Assembly (NCBI GenBank): GCA_963402885.1 | Contig: OY727096.1 | Span: 1,302,001-1,366,000, forward strand | DNA length: 64,000 nt | Reading direction: 5' to 3' | Source: Antedon bifida | Taxonomy: Eukaryota > Echinodermata > Crinoidea > Comatulida > Antedonidae | In this document: one piece after another, positions 6,401-49,684 of the stretch | Layout: each line of letters starts with the position of its first letter | Position numbering within the stretch: the stretch's first letter is position 1 | Position numbers and translations under genes: made by a program | The notes under the pieces: model-generated | Told to the model about the DNA's origin: nothing | The model's input: only the letters and a program-made list of their open reading frames with translations | Database searches by the model: none

Positions 6401-17832
<11,432 letters not shown>

Positions 17833-23911: not shown

Positions 23912-32848
<8,937 letters not shown>

Positions 32849-32994: not shown

Positions 32995-33249
32995 AAGAAA
33001 TTATAAAAAGAGGTGCTCAGAGTAATATCATCATATCATCATGGTCTAACTTCGGTCTAAAATAACATTTATATTGGTTTAAGCTGACCTGATTAAACTG
33101 TATAGGTAATTTTATATTTCCAAATCATGACAGATATAGATACTTGCTGGCCACTAACAATAAAGTGCAAATGAACAACAGCTATTTGAAATGCCTTTGT
33201 AAAATATGGTTGCAAATGTACTATGCGATAACAAACATAAATATCAACT

Positions 33250-33612
33250 TATACCTCTTTTACAATGGCAGCAAAAATGCGGATTTTATCCGGAATTGTG
33301 TAACCCGATTTGTACCAGAGACGCGGAAATGTAGGCCAGTATAAACAAACAGTTTAATAATTTAAGTACCTGTGTACTTGCATGTTCACGGTGTAAACAG
33401 TCCCGCATAGTTTTTTTGTATTATTAAGTAGCAGGTATAATGAACGGTTACTAGGGTGTTTCTTCATTCTCCAGAACATTTACACGGGTTGGTATTTTGC
33501 AGTGTAAATATACGAAACCTGTGTCATTCCCAGGTTAATGAATGTGTGTGAAATTATCCGAACACGACACAGGTTTGTTCTAAGCTAGGCAGTGTAAAAG
33601 AGGTGTTATAAG
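33250..33612. mobile_element. inverted-repeat element, ~360 bp
   Basis: The left end TATACCTCTTTTACAATGGC is matched by the right end GGCAGTGTAAAAGAGGTGTT, and both ends are flanked by TTATA-like sequence. The interior has further partly complementary blocks (ACACGGGTTGGTATTTTGCA; GACACAGGTTTGTTC). It is non-coding and probably a non-autonomous DNA transposon. Confidence 0.6.
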
Positions 33613-34028
33613 AGCTTGAATACAATCTAGATTTATCATGGCAAAATACTAATCAAAACTCCTCTTCTCCAAATAATGACTACAGGTCTTTTTTATATTC
33701 TTAGTTCAATATAAAATTTATTTGCACTGCATTCAATTTATCATTTTTAACGTAAAAAAAAAATGATGTACACTAAACAGGAAAATGACCATAAAGAGAG
33801 TAACTTTTTTTTCTAAAAAGAAAAAGAAATGATTTTTAATTGTTTTAAATTAATATACAAAAGCAGAGAATCTATACTTGTTCGTACTTCTTTCTGTTAG
33901 ATTACATTTGTAGCTAAAAGTAGGACAAGAAAATGCAATTCCATCCAACTGAGTTTAGCCCTGCTTTTGCTAATGAATTGCAGTCCTGTACTAAACACAG
34001 TAAAGCAATTACTTGTAACTTGACTCGC

Positions 34029-34181
34029 TAAAGCTTGGTTCCCACTAGGACGCACCGCAAAGACAAGCTTATTGACCAATGACAAGCGACAGTTTAAATA
34101 ATCCATCGCTTGGGATTTGTCAACTCACTTACATATCATTACGTCCCTGTGTGCTGCGTCTCTAGTGGGAACCAAGCATTA
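34029..34181. mobile_element. MITE-B copy
   Basis: The ends are TAAAGCTTGGTTCCCACTAG and CTAGTGGGAACCAAGCATTA. The arms are worn inside, but the palindrome is clear. Confidence 0.8.
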
Positions 34182-34962
34182 CTCGTCCTCACTACTGATT
34201 TCATCAGGTCATCATTGACTGGTTTCAGTTGACGTATGCATTGCTTAATAATATCTTATTTACATTTAATAAGTAGTTAAATTAATAAATATTATAAATA
34301 CTAAAGGACACTTAGCAGGTACTCTACCCTCAGACCATTAGGATCAGGTACCTCCTGATTGGTTAATTTTTTTCAATCCCTCAATTTATTTTAGCTTCTA
34401 TTTCACAATTCTCAGAATAGCATGAAAAACACAAACATGTTAGTGAACAATATAAGATGATCATGTGTATACGGCTGTCTTTGCTTTATTCAATTGTTCT
34501 CTCATTCAAAACTTTGCTAGTGAGTCGTGAATAGAAAAAACATTCTCATCCACCTTGTATTTTAAGTCATGATTTTAACTATGGTAATAATGTGTATTTA
34601 TGAAGAAAAAAGTTAATGAATTATGAAATAAATGAAGGGAGATTTTATAATTGTTTTACAGTAGTGAGATTGAATGTTTGTCTTTTAACTAACCATAATA
34701 ATTATTTTAATTTGTAGTTTGTGTTTTTCAAAATTTGAGTGTGCAAGTATTTTTCAGCATTAGCCTATCCGATGTAATTTATATAATATCTCTCAATCAT
34801 GCCTGTATATGTAAATACAGTTTGGTTTGAACAAAATATTTCAAATTTAAATTCTATCTAGTTGATTGATTATCATACGAAAATAGCACAAAATGTACAC
34901 ATTTCTAACCTAAAACCAGTCATGGCAGTGAAATAAATGTATATAAATATATGAATAAATCT
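34182..34962. other. intergenic, nothing recognised
   Basis: AT-rich sequence between transposon copies. I see no exon or repeat that I can name. Confidence 0.45.
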
Positions 34963-35089
34963 TAAGCTCTGTTTACACTATCAAACTTTATATGACAAAA
35001 AAATGTACTGTTGCCATATATGGATATGATGATGTCATACCACTACCATATTTAAGCATATCACTACCATATTTGGGCACATCACACTT
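34963..35089 (-). mobile_element. MITE-A copy 19, right end lost
   Basis: TTAAGCTCTGTTTACACTATC starts a copy that stops after CCATATTTGGGCACATCACA. The second terminal repeat is missing. It lies about 180 bp beyond the 3' end of the first TPR-TIR gene. Confidence 0.8.
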
Positions 35090-35266
35090 AGAGATCATTA
35101 AGAAGTGCACAATCACATGGACACGTGACCAAATTATGAATGGCCACATTTAATATTTTTACTGAGGAATAAAGAGTCGACAGATAAACAGAGGTCGTTT
35201 GATTATCAATTTTTTGATCAAGTATTTTCATCAACCAATAATAAACAACATTACATTTCTAATTCG

Positions 35267-37135
35267 TTACGATGTTTTTAATTGGCTAATTTGAGTTGTT
35301 ACAAAGTCGTAAAGTCGCTGCCAATCTATGACGCCATCATTACATCTTATCAACCTTTCACTAAAGGGCTGCAGTTCATTGGGAACTTCACACTGTTCGA
35401 TCATTATTTGTAACACTTTGTAATTTGGTAAACGGTCTATAGCATCATGTAAAGCAAAACTAAGTTCATACTTAATCCAAGAAGATACTTTAAAATTAGG
35501 TGATAAGATAACTATAATATATCTACTATTAAACATTGCATCAACCCTTGCGTATACATTGTATTTCCCGACTTCTCTATCTCTCCAATGTAAGTAACCT
35601 TTCAAATTATGTTCAGATTCTAGCTTTGGTATAAGATTTTCAATGACCCACTTTTGATCATATTCACATGATATTACATAGAAATCATGTTTGTAGGTTG
35701 GCGATTCATGAGTAGTTTGACTAACTTCGCTAATTAGCTGCCTGTATGTAGGCCTATTTGATTGTCGATGACTTGCTAGAGTATCTCCGTGATCTTCACT
35801 CATTCTACGTAATAATTGTATACCTCCATCTTCATCCGTTAACTTTAAGCATCTTTCCCACCGTTTGTACGTTTCTATAGGGTTAAAATAATCGTCACTA
35901 TCCGTCAATTTGACAGCTTCGGCGAAATCCAATTTGGCCATGCCAAGCAATTTTTTAGCTGCTTCTGAATCTCTAGGATTCTTTGAAAGTATTTCTTTTG
36001 CTTGTAGTAAACAAACGTAGCCGTGATCAGAGTAATCAGCGTGTGTAGTTTTTAATGTATACGCTTGTTTAAAAGAATCTTTGGCAGATAACAAGTGTTT
36101 CACATCTTCAGAACCTTCGTACATTTTTAAGTAAAGCCTACCCATATGTCTATGCCCAAACCACGATTCTTCCTCTTTAAGTGATTCTTCGAACAACTTT
36201 TCGGCTTCTTCCAAATTGTCCAGGTGAATGTACTCTGATGCAACGCGTCGGAGAACATTAGCATCCGTCTTATCTATTGAGAGACCCTTGGCTAGACATC
36301 CACATGGATCCAAGTTAAGGTCCGCGAACCGCTTGCAGTACTCTAAGTATGGAGTACTTTCTCCTATTTTGTCATCAAATGATGTCTTAAGCCGCAATAG
36401 TATAGCAATGAAAATATACGATAGTGCTTTACAGTCTTTCGGAGATTTAGGAATATCTATAACATCAAGGAAACTATTTATAGTTTCACCGAGTAATTCA
36501 TTTGAATGCTGTATTTCAGTATCATCCAAAATAGCAAATTCAGTTTTCTGAGCATATTGGCGATACAACCCCAAACTATAATCAAACATAATCTCCCCTC
36601 GTTCTATTTCTATGTCGGAATCTTCATTCCGTTTTACCTTTCCAATGTGATATTTCGCCTTTTCTAGAAATTCAAAATAGGTGAATTGGCGCTTATCCTG
36701 TTCAAAATGACGTATGATATGGGCTTTATCGCAGTAGGCCCTCGCCAGCGCCAAATCACATTTGTCATTCATAATTTTCTTCAACTTCCTACTATAGTCT
36801 TTAGCTTTGATGTGGTCGAGTGTATGTTCATAATAATATGTAATATCCGCCAATGCTGTAATATTTTCTTCATCATCTTTTAGTACTTGTAGTAAATACG
36901 TTTCACTTTCTTGTTTTGTTTCGGAGTCTTTAGCTGCTTTAAATAAAATAGCTGCATACATAGTTTTCATAGTCTGATAGTACAGTGGTCTAAGTTTACA
37001 ACGTTCCTTTAGTTTTTCTAACTTGTTATACACTGATCTTGTCTCAATATCGTTTTTAATCCGGTCCAATGGAACATCTTTATCTAAAATTTTAAAATGC
37101 CCGAATTCACACTCGACATCATCAAGTGACGCCAT
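35267..37135 (-). CDS. TPR-TIR protein, type 1 (622 aa, intronless)
   Basis: A single uninterrupted frame starts at ATG 37,135 (MASLDDVE). Residues ~35-440 are helical tetratricopeptide-like repeats, with marks such as RAYCDKAHIIRHFEQDKRQF and SWFGHRHMGRLYLKMYE. Residues ~481-612 form a TIR domain: box 1 YKHDFYVISCEYDQKWV, a BB-loop RDREVGKY (the usual Pro is absent), DAMFNSRYIIVILSPNF, then SSWIKYELSFAL with Glu557 at the position used by catalytic TIR NADases but also kept in Toll-like receptor TIRs. By family knowledge TIR domains pair with other TIRs in Toll/IL-1 signalling or cleave NAD+; which applies here is unknown. There is no signal peptide or membrane segment, so it should be cytosolic. 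It is homologous along its length to the protein at 45,998-47,827. Its 5' flank and start are duplicated at 42.3 kb. Confidence 0.9.
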   Translation of the reverse strand: MASLDDVECEFGHFKILDKDVPLDRIKNDIETRSVYNKLEKLKERCKLRPLYYQTMKTMYAAILFKAAKDSETKQESETYLLQVLKDDEENITALADITYYYEHTLDHIKAKDYSRKLKKIMNDKCDLALARAYCDKAHIIRHFEQDKRQFTYFEFLEKAKYHIGKVKRNEDSDIEIERGEIMFDYSLGLYRQYAQKTEFAILDDTEIQHSNELLGETINSFLDVIDIPKSPKDCKALSYIFIAILLRLKTSFDDKIGESTPYLEYCKRFADLNLDPCGCLAKGLSIDKTDANVLRRVASEYIHLDNLEEAEKLFEESLKEEESWFGHRHMGRLYLKMYEGSEDVKHLLSAKDSFKQAYTLKTTHADYSDHGYVCLLQAKEILSKNPRDSEAAKKLLGMAKLDFAEAVKLTDSDDYFNPIETYKRWERCLKLTDEDGGIQLLRRMSEDHGDTLASHRQSNRPTYRQLISEVSQTTHESPTYKHDFYVISCEYDQKWVIENLIPKLESEHNLKGYLHWRDREVGKYNVYARVDAMFNSRYIIVILSPNFKVSSWIKYELSFALHDAIDRLPNYKVLQIMIEQCEVPNELQPFSERLIRCNDGVIDWQRLYDFVTTQISQLKTS

Positions 37136-38683
37136 CTTTGTAAAATATCAACACAATTAATATTTCGGTGAAGCACATCACGTCTGCTTGTATCAGTATG
37201 GATACACTTCTTTAATGTCATTCATGGAGTTGTATATACACATCCGATTCAAAGGAAATTGTACAGCTAAAATATCGGTAGTTGACACGGATGTATTACG
37301 CTTATATATAAACTATGTATTTCTGAATCCATTCACCTCGATTTGTTTGTCGATTGTGGCCTGGTCCATCCACCCATAATCCACAATAACATATGGACTA
37401 CAAAGTAGACACATTTTACTAATACTAACATCTCTTTTCAATTTTACTCAATAACTCATGCTTGTTCGGTAAATAGGCCTATACACCGATGAGTCAGTCG
37501 TTCCGTCTGAAACAAACCTGGTTTTTCCGACACTGATATAAATAGTTTACCTAACCTTTTCTTCCTTCCAACCCATCAAACTCGTGATGTATTCATCGTT
37601 GTTGGTAACTTGATTATTCATTGTGTAGGTATTTATTTTATATTGAGACATAGTTTTGTGGAAATGGGATTTCTGTTTTGTTTGAAATTTACGTCATGAT
37701 GGGCATGCGTGACGATTTGGTTACCAAGACCAAACGGTTAATGATGCATATAATTAATGCAGTGAATATTCTGAATGTGTATTGAAATAGATCTTTGGGA
37801 CCCAACCAAGTTTCTCCTTAAAGGACAACTTTACCGAGAACCATATTTTAACAACTTATTAAGGATGTACATATGATTTCAGAATAATCGCGATATTTAC
37901 GATATCGCCGTACGCGCTCACCGTACAGCCGTCGCCGCAAATTGATGTGACGTCACAAGTGTATAGCAAAATCTACCTCATGAGTTTTCACTGTTGTTAA
38001 CATAGAATAGATAGGTACCGTCACTTCAATTGCTGATTTGACCTGTATTAGGCTTACATTTGCCAAAATGTTTAGTCTGGTAGTTTGAAGAAACACTTCA
38101 TTATCCAGATATACAAAAGAAACAATAAAACATTTCAAAATTTATATTTTTTACGATTGATTTTAAAAAATGTGTTTAACTAGACATTTTCGCGCTTGGC
38201 CAAAAACATGACGCATGATGCCCTGGAATCATTCAACCATATCGATTTTTTTTAATACGATCGCGCTGCGATTGTTGGTGAATATTAAATAATAAAGACG
38301 ATGATGTTTATAGAAATCAACCGGCGGCCAAAATAATCAGACCGACTCGATACCTAGCTAGTAGTGTGCCTAGCCTAGGCCTAGGAGGCTAGGCATACGG
38401 CAACCGAGTAGGCATATCAATAGGCTGCAGAATCATCTACACACACCGACATGACCCGTCGCGTGTCACACCACAGGAACGTTTTGAGTGTGATATGGTT
38501 GAGTGATTCCATGGCGTCATCACATACGCTGTTAAAATATGGTTCTTGTCCTTTAATAGGGGTGTCTCCAGAATAGGTATTGGATTTTCCTTAGTTCGTT
38601 TCAGGAAGGTGTTCCTTTGAAAGAGGTGTCCCAACTTGCCAACTATGTTTCGTCCTAAGTTACTTGATGGTGGGATAGTAAAG
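37136..38683. repeat. segmental duplication, copy 1: 5' flank of the type 1 TPR-TIR gene
   Basis: Blocks here are repeated in the same order at 42,315-43,030. They include TTGTACAGCTAAAATATC, GTAGTTGACACGG, TTGAAATTTACGTCATGATG, TGGGACCCAACCAAGTTTC and TATGTTTCGTCCTAAGTTAC. Identity between copies is high in blocks, broken by insertions and deletions. A small TAGGCCTAGG-rich patch lies at 38,350-38,420. No exon was recognised. Confidence 0.75.
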
Positions 38684-38738
38684 TAAAGCTCTGTCTACAC
38701 TATCAAACTTTATGTGACAAAAATGTGATGTGCCCATG
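38684..38738 (-). mobile_element. MITE-A fragment (left end only)
   Basis: TAAAGCTCTGTCTACACTAT to GTGATGTGCCCATG, then ordinary duplicated sequence. The rest of the element is gone. Confidence 0.75.
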
Positions 38739-38775
38739 CAACCAGCATTCTCAGTTATACTTTACACAACTTATA

Positions 38776-39255
38776 CCCTGGAAACGCACTGTTTAGAAAT
38801 AACGTCAGACTATTTTTGACATGATCGTTAAACTGTTGATAGTTTGTTTTTCAGCTTCTTATTGCGTCTTGTTTTAAGTTGGTCTTCTTATTATGCCAAA
38901 TAAAAACAATTGTTAGTTTCACGTCCGGGATTTGAAAGTTTGTTTTTAGGAGGGACTTTACTTATTAGTTATTATCTATCTTTTGACAAACTAAAAATGG
39001 TGCTACGTAACCATTATGTTTCAACTGATATCATAACACATTTATAGATATATGTTATGGTTATTTCTATTGATCATTATTATTAATATTTATTAGCAAG
39101 TGTACCGATGCATGAATTACTTCATGTGACATCACAATTGTCGAGCGTCATCACCGACTGATGATATACGCATTCAGGTTTATTAGGATATTAATCATCA
39201 GTTATCCTTTTTACTTTTAAATGTCTTAGTAACATATCACGCTTGGTATATAAGG
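38776..39255. repeat. segmental duplication, copy 1: 3' side
   Basis: This matches blocks at 44,170-44,215, 45,121-45,280 and 45,760-46,010. Shared text includes TACCCTGGAAACGC, CAGCTTCTTATTGCGTCTTG, ATTGTTAGTTTCACGTCCGG, GATGCATGAATTACTTCATG and AGGATATTAATCATCAGT. Copy 2 carries extra insertions of about 900 and 440 bp relative to this one. Confidence 0.75.
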
Positions 39256-39265
39256 TCCACACAAA
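39239..39265 (-). pseudogene. relic of the last codons of a type 2 TPR-TIR gene
   Basis: On the minus strand GACCTTATATACCAAGCGTGA encodes DLIYQA-stop, matching the DLKYQA-stop end of the gene at 45,998-47,827. It lies at the exact place expected from the aligned duplicate flanks. Upstream of it (above about 39,265) similarity ends. Almost the whole coding region of this duplicate has therefore been lost or replaced. Confidence 0.6.
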
Positions 39266-39859
39266 CTTACACTAGCAATTATCCCCGCCCAGGCAGGTTT
39301 CAAATTTAGTTTGACCTCCACCCCTCTACAATCACCCCCTCACACTTGGGTGATTTAAAAAAAAAATTCCTTCCCAGTACAATGTTCAACAACTTTACCT
39401 TCACAATGATAGGCCAAGAGGATGATACATAGCTATACTATGGTTCACTTTGCAAATTGTTTATATGAATAGGTGTCATATTGGCTACTGATTAACATAT
39501 CTAATTTTGATACAGCTGAATTACCTCTGCTCCAGCCTTTTTTCTCCTCTCCCCATCCCCACCACAATCAACAAACCTTAACTGCTCCCAGGACATAGTT
39601 TAAATGTAGTAACTGTTCCCAGTACAATTCCAATCATGTTGTACTTCATTACCCACGAAACGCCAGTAACACCGCCCTCCCCCTCCCTACACACCTTATA
39701 CTGGGTGATGTGTTTAAGACGTTTCCACTACAAATGATTTCGAGCCATCACTCCCAATCCATAACCCCTTAGTGGCAGTTTTCAAAGTTGTTGATTGAAT
39801 TTATACTAATAAACAGTATTAAAGTAACTAAAGATGTATACTATACATTACAATGTAAC
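39266..39859. other. intergenic, pyrimidine/purine-biased, nothing recognised
   Basis: Several C-rich stretches (CCACCCCTCTACAATCACCC) lie between the duplication end and the death-domain gene. I see no gene. Confidence 0.4.
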
Positions 39860-40953
39860 TTAACTTCGCACGACACCTGATGTGTACGGCGATACCCATT
39901 CAGCTTCCCTAAGAAGTTCTGCTTGTCTCAGTTTTTCATTTAACATATTACAAAACTCGTAAGGAGTTTTGTATGTTTTGTCTAATAACATTAGCAGGTT
40001 TAATGTTGGGTCTTTAACATTAATTCTCATCTTTTCGATCGTGTCAGCTTTGATTCCCATTGCGTCAGCTAAAGCTCTCCAATCAAGTGGGCCATTTTTA
40101 CCTTCCCTTTCCACGTCAAGATTTGTCATTAAACGGTGACAGACTTCTTCTGGGAGTTTAGTATAAAAGGAATGTTGTGTATCTCCGGCAATTCGACGGC
40201 ACATTTGAAGATTGAAGTCAACATCATCGGCAGGCGGCGGTACCTGAAAGAATTGAATGATACAACACTAAATGTACCATGATACTCAAGTACATTAATG
40301 CCAAAAAGGCTTATATACAAAAAAGTTTGAGGTGGTTATTATTAATAATACAGTGTGAATGAGGCTTTAGTCAGTTTTTGTTGGAATAATATCAGGCTTA
40401 GCAAGCTTTACATTTTCTTTAAAAAAAAGAGGAGCCAGATTAGTTTAAAAATGTGATGTGCCCATATATGGACATGAGGATGTCATATCACTACTATATT
40501 TGGGCATATCACTACTTTATTTGGTCACATCACACTTTTTTTGTCAAAATAGTTTGATAGTGTAGACAGAGCTTTAGACATCTAATTTTTGTTTCAGTTA
40601 ATTCTGTACTGTTTTCCTACTATTTGATTTGCAGCAATATTCATCGGTATTACCGTTTTGTTTCACTTTCATATCGTGCTGATTTTGACATTTTGACAAA
40701 AAATATTTCGATCTGACTAAATAACCAGTCTATTACAATACGTATGCCCAGAAATCTACAAAGTTTTATTTCAACATACTGGCCGCGTCGTCGTCAGAAC
40801 AAAAATGCAAAGATTAAACCGCTTTCTTACCATTTCATCTTCGTATGATGACTGCCATCCATCCTTTCGAAGCGTCTTTTCATAAACAGTGCCTTGCTCG
40901 TCTTGAATAGGCTCTGGTGGTTCAAAATCTAAATTATTAGATAATTCTTCCAT
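39860..40953 (-). CDS. small death-domain protein (two exons, 168 aa)
   Basis: Exon 1 is 40,953-40,831 (41 codons, MEELSNNLDFEPPEPIQDEQ..., donor GAAATG|GTAAGA, phase 0). Exon 2 is 40,243-39,860, opened by acceptor TTCAATTCTTTCAG, with a stop after GVVRS. Exon 2 carries a death-fold segment: LPEEVCHRLMTNLD, the family-typical DWRALADAMGI, IEKMRINVKDPTLNLLMLLD and a last helix, roughly residues 68-155. Death domains make homotypic contacts in receptor and adaptor complexes such as MyD88/IRAK, Unc5 or NF-kappaB p105; this short protein looks like a free-standing adaptor or decoy. It lies on the same strand as the TPR-TIR genes, between them. Whether it is closest to MyD88, Unc5-like or another family cannot be decided by eye. 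The intron carries a MITE-A. Confidence 0.82.
40445..40576 (-). mobile_element. MITE-A copy, left end lost, intron of the death-domain gene
   Basis: ATGTGATGTGCCCATATATG through TTTGATAGTGTAGACAGAGC. The left terminal repeat is not recognisable. Confidence 0.8.
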
Positions 40954-41339
40954 GGTTTTACTGGTTCATACGGAAATAGTGAGAGAAAATTTGATTCGTT
41001 TCTATACTGAATTCCATCCATTCAATCATTAAAATACGGTTTTTTATACAAAAAAAAGGATGAATTGAAACAGTGGAGTAAACATAGATACAGTTCACCG
41101 AGAACCAAGGCGCAGTATTGGTCCTTTTGCCGGTAGTCACTGCTATTGACAGTGTTAAAAAATAGGAGGAAATTTACTACTTAGCTTAATGCTGCTCTAT
41201 TCTTACATGATGTACACTTACTTACATTTTGCTGCTGGACTTTATTGCGATTGTGCTTAAGCTGTTAATTTTGCTTAATCACAGTAAGATGCAACGGTGA
41301 GTTGAATAATTGCTAATGTGCAAAGACTATTTTCTCTGA

Positions 41340-41555
41340 GTTCAGTTTCAGCAGCTTAAACAACACTTTACATCATGTCATAATATATTAGCAGTTTCAG
41401 CACATATTAAAAGTTGTAACAACTTAAGCAATACATTACAGCGTGTCAGAATACATTTAGCAATTTCAGGACATACAGTATTAGGCCTATAAGTTGTAAC
41501 AGATTAAGCAAGTAATTTATTAGCAGTTTCAGCATCTTAAGCACAGCATGTTAGA
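41340..41555. repeat. degenerate tandem repeat, TTAGCAGTTTCAGCA type
   Basis: At least four units of about 60-80 bp each contain TTTCAGCA- or TTTCAGGACATA-like starts followed by a CTTAAGCA-like stretch. The array ends at the stop side of the rearranged TIR gene, that is at its breakpoint. Confidence 0.6.
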
Positions 41556-42314
41556 TTAGTAGTTTTCACTAATTTTTATTTCTAATTGTATACCTCTTTG
41601 TTCATCCGTTAACTCTAAGCACCTTTCCCTCCGTTTGTACGTTTCTATAGGGTTAAAATAATCGTTGCTATCTTTCAATTTGTCAGCTTCGGTGAAATCC
41701 GATTTGGCAATGCCAAGCAATCCAGTAAGTCGCTTCCAACCACGTTCATCCATGACGCCATCACTGCATCTTATCAACGTTTCACTAAGGGGCTGCAGTT
41801 CATTGGGAACTTCACACTGTTCGATCATTATTTGTAACACTTTGTAATCTGGTAAACGTTCTATAGCATCATGTAAAGTAAAATTAAGTTCATACTTAAT
41901 CCAAAAAGACACTTTAAAGTTAGGTGATAATATAACTATAATATATCTACTATTAAACATTGCGTCAGCCCTTGCGTCTAGTTTGTAATCCCCGAATTTG
42001 CTATCTCTCCAAATTAAGTAGCCTTTCAATTTATGTTCAGATTCTAGCTTTGGTACAAGATTGTCAACGACCCAATCTCGATCAGATTCACATGATATTA
42101 CATAGAAATCGTGTTTGTAGTTTGGTTTGACATGAGTTGCCGGACTAACCTTGCTAATTAGTTGCCCGTATGTATTTGATTGTCGATGAATTGCTAGAGT
42201 CTCTTCGTGATCTTGACTCATTTCACGTACTCCATTTTTAATCCGGTCCAATGAAACTTTATCTAAAATCTGACAATGCCCAAATTCCAACTCGACATCA
42301 TCAAGTGACGCCAT
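41556..42314 (-). CDS. shortened, permuted TPR-TIR paralogue (252 aa)
   Basis: ATG 42,314 (MASLDDVELEFGHCQILDK) starts like the 622-aa type 1 protein. An upstream in-frame extension has no ATG, so this start is preferred. After about 30 residues the roughly 400-residue TPR region is missing, and the sequence jumps to the pre-TIR linker (SQDHEETLAIHRQSN) and a full TIR domain (~66-190; YKHDFYVISCESDRDWV, SPNFKVSFWIKYEL). After the TIR comes a block that in type 1 lies before it: LLGIAKSDFTEADKLKDSND, then ETYKRRERCLELTDE. Domain order is therefore circularly permuted. The frame is open throughout, which suggests it is young or still used. It may encode a TIR-only regulator or be an unexpressed relic. 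Confidence 0.7.
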   Translation of the reverse strand: MASLDDVELEFGHCQILDKVSLDRIKNGVREMSQDHEETLAIHRQSNTYGQLISKVSPATHVKPNYKHDFYVISCESDRDWVVDNLVPKLESEHKLKGYLIWRDSKFGDYKLDARADAMFNSRYIIVILSPNFKVSFWIKYELNFTLHDAIERLPDYKVLQIMIEQCEVPNELQPLSETLIRCSDGVMDERGWKRLTGLLGIAKSDFTEADKLKDSNDYFNPIETYKRRERCLELTDEQRGIQLEIKISENY

Positions 42315-43030
42315 CTTTGTAAAATACCGTATCCACACAATTAATGTTTCAGTGAAGCACGTCACGCTTGCTTGTATGAGAAAGGAAATTGTACAGCTAA
42401 AATATCAGTAGTTGACACGGTTGTATTACGCTTATAAAACTATGTACAATATTACTAAACTCCATTCACCTCGATTGGTTTGTCACAAATGTCCTGGTCC
42501 ATCAATCCATAATCCAAAATTACATATGGGCTACAAATCGTGTTGAGTTGAATCATTCTGTATACACATTTTTCAATACATATAATAATAACTTCTCTTT
42601 TTTGGTAAATATATAACCGATGTGTCAGTCGTTCCGTCTGAAACAGATTCGTGGATTTTCCGATACTGCCAACCCATCAATCTCGTGATGTATTCACCAT
42701 TGTAACCCGATTATTCATTGTAAGGGCCTAGGTATTCATTGAGACTGAAATTGTATGTCTGTTTTGTTTGAAATTTACGTCATGATGGGCATGTTTACCA
42801 ACGGATAATGCATGAATATAAATGCAGTGAATATTCTGAATGAGTATTTAAATAGATCACATTTTAAGGGGTCATCTTTGGGACCCAACCAAGTTTCCCC
42901 TTAATAGGGGTGTCTCCTGAATAAGGATTGGATTTTTCTTCGTTCGTTTCTCCCAAATGAGGTGTTATACTTATACTATATACTTGTCAATTATGTTTCG
43001 TCCTAAGTTACTTGATGGTGGGATAGTAAT
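42315..43030. repeat. segmental duplication, copy 2: 5' flank of the permuted gene
   Basis: This matches 37,136-38,683 in the same order (TTGTACAGCTAAAATATCAG, GTCATGATGGGCATG, GGGACCCAACCAAGTTTC, GTCCTAAGTTACTTGATGG), with small gaps. It shows that gene and promoter were copied together. Confidence 0.75.
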
Positions 43031-43220
43031 ACGCAGTACGGTGCATAATGAGAGAGATCTCCTTTCATCGGTTGTATTGCACTTTAGCCCTATACTGTCT
43101 GATTAACAATCAAGTGCCCTATAGGCCTACAATAGGATAGACATTTATTTCCTCTTTCGGTATGTATGTCACCTACAGGCCACAATAATGAGGTTGTGAT
43201 AAATATTGGTCACATTGTTT

Positions 43221-43757
43221 GCTTAACGATGTATTGTCCCTTTGTCAAATTCCAAAAAAATTTAAAAAAAAAGATTTCGAAAAAAAGTTGGTCATTTTGA
43301 AGTATCATAATAGTTATTAACTTTCACCAAAAATTAGTCGAAAAAAAAATCATTTAACTGAAATACAGACGTTTTTTTGTTCAAAAAATAACTTTGACTT
43401 CCAGTCAAAGTTTTCAATCGAAACATATCTCATAATGTTACGCGCTTGTTTGGCTACTCTGTATGCATAATCATAAAACTTCCTCGCGATCTGTGTGAGA
43501 ACACCTTCTCAACCGTGACGAGTTGTAAACAATCCTAATTAGCATCATGCATAATGCATACTCACGGTTTGAAATCTTTGTTTACTTTCGCTCGCGACGA
43601 TTTTCCAGACGAATATAATCAAATTAATTTACCTGTTAATTACGTAAACTTGTTGTTTTCAACTTAAAGTGAATAACTTTAATATTACTTTCATATGGTC
43701 AATTTAAATTTAGAATATTTTGACCCTCATTTTTTGTGTTTCAAGGGACAATACATC
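43221..43757. mobile_element. MITE-D relative, ~535 bp, inserted in duplication copy 2
   Basis: The left end GATGTATTGTCCCTTTGTC and the right end AAGGGACAATACATCTTTAAA form terminal inverted repeats like other MITE-D members. The interior is longer and different (AGTATCATAATAGTTATTAA near the left; a CTCGCGATCTGTGTGAGAAC segment in the middle). It is absent from the corresponding place in copy 1. Confidence 0.7.
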
Positions 43758-43883
43758 TTTAAATTATGCAAATATGAACAGTGAACATTGGCCTATGATT
43801 ATGCAATAGTTATGCAGGATGACATCCTCGTGTACATATTGAGGTTATCAAATATGACAACCAGGCTCATGGTATAGGCCTAC

Positions 43884-44051
43884 TTAAGCTCCGTCTACAC
43901 TATCAAACTTTATGTGACAAAAAATGTGATGTGCCCATATATGGACATGATGATGTCATATCACTACCATATTTAGGAATATCACTACCATTCTTTGGGC
44001 ATATCACACTTTTTTTTGTCAAACTAGTTTGATAGTGTAGACAGGGCTTTA
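43884..44051 (-). mobile_element. MITE-A copy 20
   Basis: The ends are TTAAGCTCCGTCTACACTAT and GATAGTGTAGACAGGGCTTT. It is well preserved and lies in duplication copy 2. Confidence 0.87.
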
Positions 44052-44215
44052 CTTATTGCTTATACTTTTTTGATAAAGTAATTGGGACTAAGCTAGGATA
44101 TTTGGATGCTAGTAGGCGGATTGCAACCTGCATGCACAGTCATACGTTACACTATTTATCAGAAATATTAAATACCCTGGAAACGCGCACTGTTTAGAAA
44201 TAACGTCAGACAATT

Positions 44216-45120
44216 TTTTATCTAAACTTAATGAAGTGTAATAAAGTACACCCTTGTTGTCTGATCTGTTTATTATGGCTAAGGAAATCCATGAATGACA
44301 CAGCATTTATGTCTCAGCATGATAACAGGTAGCTGGCAGCACTTTGTATTCATAGTACTGTACTGTACTGGTTAAAAAGGAACCGTTTTTGGAGTTGTTT
44401 GGCACCCACCGGGCAAAACCCTGTACATTTTAACCAATTGAATAATGAACATGCTCTTTTTCATCACTTTTTGAAAACATTTTTTTGCTTCAATAATCAA
44501 ACGCAAAGGTATCTACTCATGCTTCAATGTCAATATTATAGTAACGTTTTGAGTAATTCAACAAACGGTATAGTTTCGGTAGAATTACCAACTTTTCGAA
44601 ACTGAACACTCGTTAAATAGCAGATTTGTATCACAATATAAACAACGGTCTATATTCTCATAACGTTCTCCGGTGTGTGTGTGTGTTTGTTTTTTACTAT
44701 GTTCGACCTTTTGATGTTTATTTAAAATTGTACATTCATTATGCGTCCTTAATAACTTCTTACAAATTGTAATGAGGTTTTTGTAAAAAGTAGTACATGA
44801 TTAGCTGAAACAAAATGTTTGTTTATTTTTTTTTGGCGAGTAATTAGCCTAAGATCTGTATCAATAGAAATGCATTTGTTAACTGGTATGGACAATCAAA
44901 CACAACAATACCATTACCATTACTGTATTCAATAACGTAATGGACCAAACAAATGTTTTTATTGCAGTTACTGCAGTAAATACATTTTTTACTGTTAAAA
45001 CGTGCTTATGCAATTATTTAGCAAGTTTTTAGTTAATCATACACTGTTTATTGCAGTAAGTACTATTTGCAGTACTGTAGTTACTGCAGTAATGTAGTTA
45101 CTACAGAGTAATATAATAAT
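44216..45120. repeat. ~900-bp insertion in duplication copy 2, with GTTACTGCAGTAA motifs
   Basis: This block interrupts sequence continuous in copy 1 (CAATTTTT...TTTGACATGATC). Its right part has repeated TTACTGCAGTAA-type words (44,960-45,115) and resembles 60,530-60,800, which also ends in a GCAGTAA run followed by TGTTGACGTGATC. It is therefore probably a dispersed element; the class is not known. Confidence 0.45.
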
Positions 45121-45280
45121 TTTGACATGATCTTTAAACTGGTTGTTTTTCAGCTTCTTATTGCGTCTTGTTTTAAGTTGGTCTTCTTATTATGCCAAAT
45201 AAAAACAATTGTTAGTTTCACGTCCGGGATCTGATTTTTAAGAAGGGACTTATTATCTATTTTTTGACAAACTAAAAATG

Positions 45281-45997
45281 CTGATATGTAACCATTATTC
45301 TCATTGTTTTAAACCAAGTTAGTTGTTAGATTGCCTTGTTTTAACAATTTGTATAATAAATCGAATTATCTTTTCATCTTTGTTAAAGAATACGAACATT
45401 TCTTTTTAAAATAGCACAATAAAGTAATGCGGCTCTAAACTTCATGAGGTAGAGGTAAAACATTTTTTAAATGCAAAGTTTCAAACATTAGGTGAAATTT
45501 CTTTATTTTTGTTTTTATTTCTGCTCACACACAATAATATAGTACATACATTGAATACTGTAGGCCTATTGTATACAGTAGTAAAGAAATTAAACCAACT
45601 CGCCAATGTATACAAAGACCATAACCAACTTCCAAATTAAACCAACTCGCCTCGTATACAAAGACCATAACCAACTTCCAAATCATCTATTAATTTGTAA
45701 TTGTCCTAATGTTTACGAGAATTAAAGTCTTCATAGGAATAGTTTGGTTTCAAACCAAGTGACGTCATAACACATTTATAGACATATGTTATGGTTATTT
45801 CTATTGATCATTATTATTAATATGTATTGGCAAGTGTGCCGATGCATGAATTACTTCATGTGACGTCACAATTGTCGAGTCATCGCCGACTGGTGAATGT
45901 ACTCATTCAGGTCTATCAGGATATTAATCATCAGTATTACTGTATTTCCTCCATGGTATATCCTTGTTTACTTTTAAATGTCCTGCTTCGTAACATA
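45281..45997. repeat. segmental duplication, copy 2: 3' side
   Basis: Sequence from about 45,755 to the stop of the type 2 gene aligns with 39,010-39,260 (ATAACACATTTATAGACATA, TGGTTATTTCTATTGATCAT, AATTACTTCATGTGACGTCA). The 45,290-45,750 part is absent from copy 1. Confidence 0.65.
45588..45682. repeat. tandem duplication, two ~47-bp units
   Basis: AAATTAAACCAACTCGCC, then TATACAAAGACCATAACCAA and CTTCC, occurs twice in a row with one or two differences. Confidence 0.75.
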
Positions 45998-47827
45998 TCA
46001 AGCCTGGTATTTAAGATCTTCCGCTAATTTGTGCCAATGATGCTTGTGAAATTGACCGCTGACACACTCAATCCTTTGCATTGTTTCTAATGTTTCAGGT
46101 ACCTCACATTCTCGTAGCATTATTGGAATGATGCACTTCCTTTTAACGTTTTGGTCTAAAGCTCGACGGATTTCCTCGTTACAATAGTGACTTTTTATTG
46201 AGTCAGGAGACATAATAATAATTGTTTTATGACTTTCTTTAATTGACGTCATTATATTTTCAATTATTGTATAACCAAGCCCATAGTCTCTATACCGTAT
46301 GCATCCTATAAGGTCAAAGTCATTTTCGAGTTTCTTCAACAGTGCACTAGCCCACTTGTGGTCTATGTGACAAAAACTGAGAAAAAAATCGTAACGGAAT
46401 GGTTTCCGATCGCCGGATATTCGTGGTCTGTAGGCGATTTCATGTGCAGTTTTAATACTAACAAATCCTTCTCGTTCGTCATGTCTATATTGAGAATGAT
46501 GGCGGTTGCATTCATTGCCATTGCAATCTGTTCCGTGTTTTTTGCCACGTTTTTCTATCTCATCAATCATACTTCGTAACTCTGTCGTCAAAGCGTCAGC
46601 AAGTTCCTGCTGTAACGTAGCACTCTCGTATTCTCCACATGCTTTTAAACATTCAGCCCAACGTCTGTGAGTTTCTGTTGTGTCAAAGTTGTCATTATTC
46701 TGGTTATATTTAGCACGAAGAAATTCTTGAAGAGCATTGTCCCATTCTCGTTTTAAGAAATACACGTAGCCAAGATCAGAGTGATCGGCGTGTACGTCCT
46801 TCTTTTCAATAGCTTGCTTTAAACTACCTTCGGCTTTTGTCAGTAAGTTTGTATCATGCGTCTCCTCATACATGCGTATATACATTAGTCCCTGGTGCCG
46901 GTACGCAAACCACGATTTCTCTAGGCTGAGCGATTTAGTGAATAGCTTCGCAGCTTCTTCATGGCGACCAACGCGCGAGAATTCAGATGCAACTCTCCTA
47001 GTAACGATTTGATTTTCAGGCGATATTTCCAGACCTTTTTCAATACAGTCAATGGAGTTCAGTCCGTGAATTTCAGCATTTTTCGGAAAGCAACGATCTA
47101 ATGATCGCGTCGCATCATGTCTTAGTAAAATCCCCATAAAAACCCACGACAATGCTTTATATACCTCACAACCTCCTTCCACCTGGATAACCTTATAGAA
47201 CGTGTCAATAGCCTCATTAAAATTTGGATCCTTTTCCTCCAAACTAGCACGAGCAAGCAGAAATTGGAAATCCTTTCTAAATAATGCTAAGCCATAATCA
47301 AACAACCATTCACCCTTTTCGGGAATTGTGATATTGTTGCTAAACTCCAATGCTTGGCATAAATAAGGCATGTACGTAAATTCGCGACAATCTTGTTGAA
47401 AATGACGCACCGCGTGCGCTCGCTCACAAAATGCACGCGTAATAATGATGTCTTCTTTGTTTTTGCATAGTCTCTGCAAGTCTCTCTTGTAGACATTTGC
47501 AATTGTAATTCTTCCTTGACGCGTATATATCGTAAACAGATTACTAACTGCGTTCAGATTGTCGGGGTCTTTCTGCAGTACCTCTTTAAATATATCTATA
47601 CTCTCATTTACTTTATGTAACTTAAACAAGATATATCCGTACAAGTTTTTGATTGAAATGAAATATGTGGGGAGTGTATCAAAGTCTACACGTCTGACAC
47701 TTAAGATTGTTTCCTCCCTTCTCAAAATATCTTGCTGAATGTCTTTCAGTTCGTCCCACGTCAGGTGCGAACCCATGTTACAAATGATTTCGTCTACATT
47801 TTGACAGCTATTGCAGCCAGATGACAT
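45998..47827 (-). CDS. TPR-TIR protein, type 2 (609 aa, intronless)
   Basis: A single frame starts at ATG 47,827 (MSSGCNSCQNVDE); four upstream in-frame codons begin with GTG and are not taken as start. Residues ~50-420 are TPR-like helices that align with the type 1 protein at RAFCERAHAVRHFQQDCREF, RRVASE, SWFAYRHQGLMYIRMYE and HADHSDLGYVYFL. A His/Asn-rich linker (~430-455) precedes the TIR domain (~477-605): YDFFLSFCHIDHKWA, BB-loop RDYGLGYTI, ENIMTSIKESHKTIIIMSPD (very close to Toll-like receptor TIRs) and CNEEIRRAL with Glu at the catalytic/structural position. No signal or membrane segment is present. It is most likely a cytosolic TIR signalling protein. A recent 186-bp tandem duplication lies about 300 bp upstream of its start. 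Confidence 0.9.
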   Translation of the reverse strand: MSSGCNSCQNVDEIICNMGSHLTWDELKDIQQDILRREETILSVRRVDFDTLPTYFISIKNLYGYILFKLHKVNESIDIFKEVLQKDPDNLNAVSNLFTIYTRQGRITIANVYKRDLQRLCKNKEDIIITRAFCERAHAVRHFQQDCREFTYMPYLCQALEFSNNITIPEKGEWLFDYGLALFRKDFQFLLARASLEEKDPNFNEAIDTFYKVIQVEGGCEVYKALSWVFMGILLRHDATRSLDRCFPKNAEIHGLNSIDCIEKGLEISPENQIVTRRVASEFSRVGRHEEAAKLFTKSLSLEKSWFAYRHQGLMYIRMYEETHDTNLLTKAEGSLKQAIEKKDVHADHSDLGYVYFLKREWDNALQEFLRAKYNQNNDNFDTTETHRRWAECLKACGEYESATLQQELADALTTELRSMIDEIEKRGKKHGTDCNGNECNRHHSQYRHDEREGFVSIKTAHEIAYRPRISGDRKPFRYDFFLSFCHIDHKWASALLKKLENDFDLIGCIRYRDYGLGYTIIENIMTSIKESHKTIIIMSPDSIKSHYCNEEIRRALDQNVKRKCIIPIMLRECEVPETLETMQRIECVSGQFHKHHWHKLAEDLKYQA

Positions 47828-48118
47828 GGCGTTCCACACTTCATTATATTATCCAAACTACACTATGTGAACGGAAGATATTATTGATTGTGATAGGATT
47901 TCCCGGACGTCTTCTGGTAGCATTTTCTCCCTACAAGAAAAAATATATATGTCACCATACCACGGAATATGGTTTTATTTTGCAGCATAAATTATGTCGG
48001 GTATAATATTAATATATTGCACTTTGTGTAGGCTTATGTGTTAGATCGGCCAGGATATTTGCTGCAGGAGAGTCATGTGATGTGAGCACAGACTAAACTT
48101 GTTTTCTATTAAATCTGC

Positions 48119-48490
48119 CGTGCATGTGTAATTTTGGAGTGAACTCAAACTACCCACTCAGTCTTATGCAATAAAAATAATATTTGTGAGTAACTCATGC
48201 TTAGTACTAGTAGCCTATAGTAACACATAACAGAAGGAAATGAAGGAACCAATATGCATTTAGACACAAACTTGTCGCCCTCACTGCCTATCTATACAAC
48301 CACACGTGCATGTGTAATTTTGGGAATGAACTCAAACTACCCACTCAGTCTTATGCAATAAAAATAATATTTGTGAGTAACTCATGCTTAGTACTAGTAG
48401 CCTATAGTAACACATAACAGAAGGAAATGAAGGAACCAATATTCATTTAGACAAACACTTGTCGCCCTCACTGATCTATGTATGCAAACA
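48119..48490. repeat. recent tandem duplication, two 186-bp units
   Basis: CGTGCATGTGTAATTTTG begins at 48,119 and again at 48,305. The units are nearly identical over TTATGCAATAAAAATAATAT, AGTACTAGTAGCCTATAGTA and AAGGAACCAATA, with only a few differences. Confidence 0.9.
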
Positions 48491-49684
48491 CAATTACCTG
48501 TAACAATAGGCCTAATTCTTAATCAGATTTTCATTACGGATTTGAATCGAGAGTTGTATATATAAATATTTGATTTGTAATCTTCGGCAGACAATACAAT
48601 ACAGACGAACTAGAGTAGAATTAGAAAAAAAATCAATCAATCGCCAAGATAGCAGCAATAATAGGAAAAAATGGCATAAGGAAAGACTTTTGACTTTTGT
48701 GTATTTGTATAAAAATGTTGACTTGTAAACTATATACAGTAATATGATATAATGTAATAGCATGGAGGTATAAAATCCACGTTAATAGCATGGAGGTAAC
48801 ATTTTTTACCTCCATTGTATAGTAAGTATTCTAGTTACACTACAGACAAACGTCATGGCATTTCGCTGTGGGAACAATCATGTGCTTAGTTACATTCCAG
48901 CTCCCATGAAGCCTAACAGGTTAAATAGGCTCGAGGTCACACTTCTAAACGTTTCCTTATAAACTTATTAAAGCTATGCTCAGGACACTGGTTTTACTTG
49001 TAACATGAAGATAACTTACCTTCTCCGGAGAAAGCCTAAAGCCTGTCGATTTACTAATGCTCCAGATGTTTGTATATTTTACCTTAGTACGCCAAAGTAC
49101 ACGTCACTGTTATTTTAGAATTGTCTTCAAATCATGATTCATATAGACACATACAGATCGGTTGTCGCATGAAAGTTTCAACAAAAACCTCTCAATATGA
49201 CCTTACAGTCCTGATTAGTAACTTGACCTTAAATGGCGTATGTACCAAATCTGATTGGTTTAATAAAGTATACATGCCTATTACGTCATCGTGTCTTACT
49301 GGTAGCTTATTCCATGACGTTGTTGAAATGTTTTAGAACAACCTATACAGTAATCATGAATTATAATGGTATAATCATGGATAAATAATGTATCCATGCT
49401 ATTATAGACCATGGATTAGATGAATTATCTAGATAAATAATCATAATAATAGACTAAGTCGAGGCACTTAAAAAACGATCACTATTCTTTACTCCATGCT
49501 GAAACTATATTATACAATCTAATATTTATCTCTACAAATGATTTGGGGGGAAAAGTGAATAAATTATTACGTAAACAAACAAAATGTACAGAGATGCTAA
49601 ACTCAAACTTGGAGTTATAAATCAACAGACAAGATGTCTAACTAATAAAGTAGATAACTAACTAACAAACTAACAACTACTAAC
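48491..49684. other. intergenic, nothing recognised
   Basis: No exon, RNA or repeat here is convincing. A short open frame at 49,121-49,336 has no support. Confidence 0.4.

Follow-up and report, generated by a model that had tools for sequence, protein, structure and literature searches.

What does it mean that genes for TIR domains stand beside a gene for a probable death domain in the genome of a feather star? The window, a stretch of 64,000 nucleotides from contig OY727096.1 of Antedon bifida (assembly GCA_963402885.1, positions 1,302,001 to 1,366,000), holds two genes that encode a tetratricopeptide repeat (TPR) array followed by a TIR domain, here called gene A and gene B. A TIR-only copy and a probable death-domain gene lie between them (Table 1). 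A first-pass annotation, made from the letters alone, had proposed that this is a cytosolic sensing or adaptor system with the modules of MyD88 split over neighbouring genes. We give a probability of roughly 60% to a plainer reading: invertebrate cytosolic TIR-TPR adaptors or regulators, non-enzymatic and of a known class, in a small tandem cluster, with the death-domain gene most likely an independent neighbour.

The frames of genes A and B are open along their full coding length and their coding parts contain no introns, which bears out the claim of two intact intronless genes. The Pfam profile search that the first-pass annotation had called for found TIR_2 above its cut-off of 28 bits in both genes (gene A, 34.4 bits; gene B, 63.2 bits) as well as in the TIR-only copy. 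The TPR scaffold ascribed to both genes was recovered directly in gene B, where TPR_2 scores 43.8 bits against a cut-off of 27 bits; in gene A all TPR models fall under their cut-offs, and we accept the array there because it is homologous to gene B across its length. The two proteins align colinearly over 588 columns with 31% identity (E 2e-72) and, judged by this alignment, are paralogues, although the silent-site distance between them is beyond the computable range. As had been noted, all genes of the cluster lie on one strand, the minus strand. None of the four proteins has a 19-residue window with a mean Kyte-Doolittle hydropathy of at least 1.6, a simple test that agrees with the earlier claim that no membrane part is present.

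A model of the gene B protein built from three window sequences has a mean predicted local distance difference test score (pLDDT) of 56. Its TPR helices are fairly well predicted, with many ten-residue blocks at 70-93. The best 50 of its 1227 matches in the PDB are TPR or other helical-repeat proteins, such as SPINDLY, IFIT5, IFIT1, OGT and consensus TPRs, and include no TIR. Scans with gene B returned 2 pattern matches in viral contigs, with no relative among them, and 123 pattern matches in prokaryote genome contigs, among which one locus is a flavobacterial TIR (residues 468-584, 24% identity). A 187-base unit stands in two tandem copies, 94% alike, from about 290 bases before the gene B ATG and is possibly a duplicated promoter element.

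We wondered whether the TIR domains are of the signalling or of the enzymatic kind. Among solved structures, the best matches of the gene B TIR are Hydra Toll-receptor-related 2 (1.5e-11), TLR15/TLR2 and TLR1/6/10, followed by a TIR-STING fusion and MyD88. The gene A TIR matches TLR6, TLR15/2, TLR1 and TLR2 best (from 6e-9), with much weaker matches to TIRAP, TICAM2 and an unspecified “TIR domain protein”. SARM1 is absent from the best 60 of 67 matches of gene B and from all 31 of gene A. These searches support a Toll type for the TIRs of the cluster, carried in cytosolic TPR-TIR proteins. The alternative, that the TIRs are NAD-consuming enzymes held under the control of the TPR array in the manner of SARM1, draws on a glutamate (the E552 column of gene B) that is invariant in all three TIRs and aligns with the catalytic glutamate of SARM1. 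The aligned TLR TIRs carry the same glutamate, however, and its neighbourhood alone is not decisive. Since Toll and adaptor TIRs rank first among the solved matches, we set the enzyme aside as very unlikely.

The third TIR gene, described earlier as a further paralogue, does encode a TIR (TIR_2, 35.3 bits), but it is a permuted copy of gene A that has no TPR match in Pfam. Its pieces run in the order start, TIR and TPR end, the last being a fragment of the final repeats, whereas in gene A the TPR end precedes the TIR. This order may have come about if the end of the gene was duplicated in tandem and two deletions then occurred. About 590 bases upstream of the copy are shared with the flank of gene A; going by this alignment, the duplication of gene A included its upstream region.

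The copy and gene A have diverged in a near-neutral fashion. Over the 165 codons of the TIR pieces, differences number 20, 15 and 22 at codon positions 1, 2 and 3, and the ratio of nonsynonymous to synonymous rates (dN/dS) is 0.87 by NG86 and 0.93 by YN00. By NG86 only, it is 0.85 in the TPR-end piece and 0.60 in the start piece, which is short at 26 codons. The frame stayed open in 13% of trials when 44 random substitutions were introduced (half of the 88 differences, indels excluded), and the open frame of the copy is thus weak evidence for function. Of the 27 aligned TIR residues that distinguish gene A from the copy, gene B shares 2 with gene A and 0 with the copy.

A second trace of past duplication lies just downstream of the death-domain gene. 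This relic opens with seven codons that read DLIYQA-stop, where gene B closes with DLKYQA-stop, and runs on into sequence that is 81-83% identical to the 3' flank of gene B (46018-45756 and 45298-45117). From these matches, what remains is the 3' end either of a lost gene resembling gene B or of a duplicated segment in which such a gene lay. The relic and the permuted copy together indicate that the region was shaped by duplication and decay. One could extend this to the whole cluster and suppose that it is decaying and no longer functional, as the copy, the relic and the near-neutral divergence would allow. Genes A and B, however, retain full-length frames and colinear identity at a silent-site distance too large to compute, and we regard general loss of function as very improbable.

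The stand-alone death-domain gene of the first-pass annotation stands in altered form: its first exon had been missed, and the frame given for it (39860-40204) starts inside an exon. The full two-exon product has 168 residues, with an intron of 587 bases that joins the exons in phase between good splice sites. Death is the sole Pfam match of the earlier frame, at 14.0 bits (E 0.056) against a cut-off of 22.6 bits; with exon 1 added it falls to 12.9 bits (E 0.12), likewise under the cut-off, and it drops out altogether, up to E 10, in a scan of that frame as a single stretch of 4999 residues (15 kb). Searched by sequence, the second exon has no match in the PDB up to E 10. A single-sequence model of the protein shows six helices at a pLDDT of 44, and no death fold occurs among the 41 PDB rows that it matched, an absence that says little because confidence in the model is low.

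Other evidence favours a death domain. Using a home-made profile of twelve human death domains, whose sequences were not taken from deposited records, the second exon scores 18.3 bits; among 5000 shuffles, of which 4145 were scored, the maximum was 8.8 bits. Compared pairwise with the same twelve domains, it gives the highest z values with the UNC5 type (4.4), EDARADD (4.3), MyD88 (4.1), ANK1 (3.7) and FADD (2.8), and the lowest with IRAK4 (1.0), NFKB1 (0.6), FAS (0.2) and IRAK1 (-0.5). We call this a probable death-domain gene. As for the frame itself, codon preference derived from genes A and B is highest in the stated frame of both exons (0.31 and 0.16, compared with at most 0.14 and at most 0.05 in the other five frames). 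That the product is some other protein, or the frame a chance one, is unlikely: the sub-threshold Death match, its disappearance from the frame-wide scan and the lack of fold support all speak for it, as does a shuffling test, in which a stop-to-stop frame of at least 135 codons turned up in 2 of 300 base-shuffled versions of the local non-coding DNA (4602 bases; three frames, one strand), but it has to contend with two in-phase exons, good splice sites, the codon preference and a profile score far above that of any shuffle.

Is this gene a partner of the TIR genes? In the window it is found at its own place only (tblastn, E up to 0.01), and a scan of viral contigs with the second exon gave 14 pattern matches and no relative. 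We also looked for further TIR exons after the death exon. Pfam scans of the three minus-strand frames of 33000-47999, with stops read as X, returned one TIR stretch in the first frame, no family at all in the second and two TIR stretches in the third, which is consistent with the three known genes; short exons could be missed in such a scan. The relic, the permuted copy and the single-copy death-domain gene suggest that TIR genes duplicated in tandem and decayed around a neighbour.

A split MyD88 module would have the TPR-TIR proteins sense something in the cytosol and signal through the neighbouring death-domain adaptor to IRAK-like kinases or caspases. It would account for the presence of TPR-TIR and death genes on the same strand within about 12.6 kb, and the death-like exon does rise above 5000 shuffles, with the UNC5-type, EDARADD and MyD88 domains nearest to it among the twelve human ones. 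Set against this are the Death match under the Pfam cut-off, the empty PDB sequence search, the poor model with no death fold among its matches, and a cluster history that looks like duplication and decay. TIR and death domains, moreover, normally pair with their own kind, and a further adaptor carrying both would therefore be expected. Since the death-domain gene has no second copy and the region was shaped by duplication and decay, proximity is the only link between it and the TIR genes. Such a two-gene system is possible but quite unlikely, and of the cytosolic adaptor system first proposed we keep the cytosolic Toll-type TPR-TIR proteins and not the functional module with the death-domain gene.

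Under the preferred reading, that of a TIR-TPR cluster with an independent neighbour, the proteins would bind a partner or ligand through their TPR array, which is probably a scaffold of the TTC22 type, and with their C-terminal TIR, of Toll type, they would join or block TIR-TIR assemblies with TLR- or MyD88-type proteins. The TPR-TIR protein would thus presumably act as an adaptor or regulator and not as an enzyme. Tandem duplication would have come first, followed by rearrangement and loss that left one copy without its TPR array and reduced another to a 3' end, while the two-exon gene would most likely be an independent neighbour.

Several observations weigh against this reading. The near-neutral divergence does not tell whether gene A or its copy has relaxed. 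The model of gene B is weak: its TIR part, although composed of alternating strands and helices, is mostly below a pLDDT of 50, and query TM-scores reach at most 0.25 among the best 50 of 1227 matches. The TIR-STING fusion matches gene B at 4.8e-5, above MyD88, and gene A at 0.39, and the unspecified “TIR domain protein” matches gene A at 0.023. Finally, the BB-loop proline is absent from all three TIRs, which read RDREVG, RDSKFG and RDYGLG (pattern RD-x-x-x-G). According to one survey, the BB loop of MyD88 is RDVLPG, and those of TLRs, the IL-1R family and TIRAPs are similar (PMC7075850). Any contact with MyD88 may for this reason be of an unusual kind.

The likeness of the scaffold to vertebrate TTC22 was assessed with a human query not taken from the deposited record. 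Against this sequence the TPR region of gene B scores 82 bits in blastp, with 24% identity over 353 colinear columns, and 214 by Smith-Waterman alignment compared with a maximum of 66 in 200 shuffles. The match of gene A is weak (28 bits; Smith-Waterman 84 versus 57). In phmmer, the same TTC22 query scores at most 24 bits against solved TPR proteins, and gene B scores 39 bits against an engineered TPR protein and 18 against natural PEX5, to be set beside a TTC22 score that is from blastp. The match of gene B looks specific because the solved TPR controls score lower, with the reservation that the TTC22 letters do not come from the deposited record. It is tempting to go further and regard the invertebrate TPR-TIR scaffold as ancestral to TTC22, which would then be what is left of an immune sensor after loss of its TIR, with signalling, in the lineage studied here, through the adjoining stand-alone death-domain adaptor in a MyD88-like relay across separate genes. 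TTC22 has no TIR, whereas genes A and B carry one, and our search found no literature joining TTC22, TPR and “TIR domain”; we hold this combined scenario to be a very long shot.

Table 1 Features of the TPR-TIR cluster and its surroundings, in positions of the window.
Feature	Position	Strand	Remarks
Gene A, TPR-TIR, 622 aa	35267..37135	-	TPR-like scaffold ~residues 50-440, TIR ~483-600
Gene A 5' flank common to the copy (42904-42315)	37136..37821	-	68% identity, 815 columns, 191 gaps, gene start included
Relic of gene-B-like 3' end	38811..39257	-	beside death-domain gene
Probable death-domain gene, exon 2, 127 codons + stop	39860..40243	-	TTTCAG acceptor; Death match below Pfam cut-off
Probable death-domain gene, exon 1, 41 codons	40831..40953	-	ATG start; GTAAGA donor
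Permuted TIR-only copy of gene A, 252 aa	41556..42314	-	near-neutral divergence
Copy, start piece	42314-42235	-	
Copy, TIR piece	42229-41748	-	87.5% identity to gene A
Copy, TPR-end piece	41721-41565	-	86.6% identity to gene A
Gene B, TPR-TIR, 609 aa	45998..47827	-	helical TPR array ~residues 53-430, TIR ~479-606
Gene B region similar to vertebrate TTC22	46406-47650	-	TTC22 query not from the deposited record
Two 187-base tandem copies	48119-48492		upstream of gene B
WW domain	7925-8194	+	above Pfam cut-off
FF domains	11543-11878	+	above Pfam cut-off
Pkinase	27744-28025	+	below Pfam cut-off
Pkinase	28427-28753	+	above Pfam cut-off
OSR1_C	31707-31946	+	above Pfam cut-off
Dispersed MITE-like element, examples	34960-35089, 40446-40578, 43883-44051		many other places

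The DNA of the window is eukaryotic, with introns present and a base composition of 33.4% G+C. Upstream of the cluster, the plus-strand exons with WW and FF domains would belong to a PRPF40-type gene, and those with Pkinase and OSR1_C to an OXSR1-type kinase, both names being read from the domains. The last exon of the kinase ends in a TAA stop at 32846-32848 (read by eye), and the cluster follows it. The kinase (27744-32848) is close to the probable death-domain gene (39860-40953), which has some likeness to MyD88. Human MYD88 and OXSR1 are also neighbours; the orientation in the Antedon bifida window differs. A short dispersed element resembling a miniature inverted-repeat transposable element (MITE), whose ends are inverted and which contains a 21-base repeat, gives 70 overlapping match pieces across the window, and an exact 29-base pattern of this dispersed element was not found in viral contigs.

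The locus is a well-defined local example of invertebrate cytosolic TIR genes duplicating, losing domains and being permuted. Should the likeness to TTC22 be upheld with the deposited sequence, a vertebrate gene that has been little studied would gain an origin open to testing. The linkage with the death-domain gene, if conserved, would point to a MyD88 relay in a form divided between two genes. No description of a TPR-TIR cluster with a death-domain gene was found in the open-licence literature, and no TIR-TPR protein appears in the available portions of PMC11797021, PMC2575513, PMC4083563, PMC7642931 and PMC8195603.

That TPR-TIR fusions are known in other lineages, as the first-pass annotation had stated, holds true. 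A survey of sea anemone, oyster, fly, sea urchin and human treats TIR-TPR as a named class (PMC4346834), and the term is among the abbreviations listed in an Aplysia survey (PMC9334734). Like genes A and B, this invertebrate class, going by its name, has TIR and TPR in one protein. On their domain content, the two genes are members of this already known class, in a small duplicated cluster. The first of these surveys describes oyster MyD88-like genes that are clustered or paired, 4 of 10 being TIR only (PMC4346834), and conserved non-receptor TIR proteins of invertebrates are presented as hypothetical adaptors or regulators (PMC6321704). In plants and actinobacteria, too, single proteins combine TIR and TPR, and there the TIR is N-terminal (PMC9153377, PMC7075850). 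In genes A and B the TIR is C-terminal, and the central NB-ARC of the plant TIR-NBARC-TPR proteins has no Pfam match in them. SARM1 joins ARM and SAM domains to its TIR, whereas the proteins of the cluster have no Pfam match to either up to E 1. The best pairwise scores of the death exon among the twelve human domains, those with the UNC5 type, EDARADD and MyD88, reflect a weak similarity. With MyD88 the cluster shares a Toll-type TIR and a death-like domain nearby, but MyD88 carries both in one polypeptide and has an RDxxPG BB loop, whereas here they belong to separate genes, Pfam reports no Death domain, up to E 1, for any of the three TIR proteins and each of their TIRs has a BB loop without the proline.

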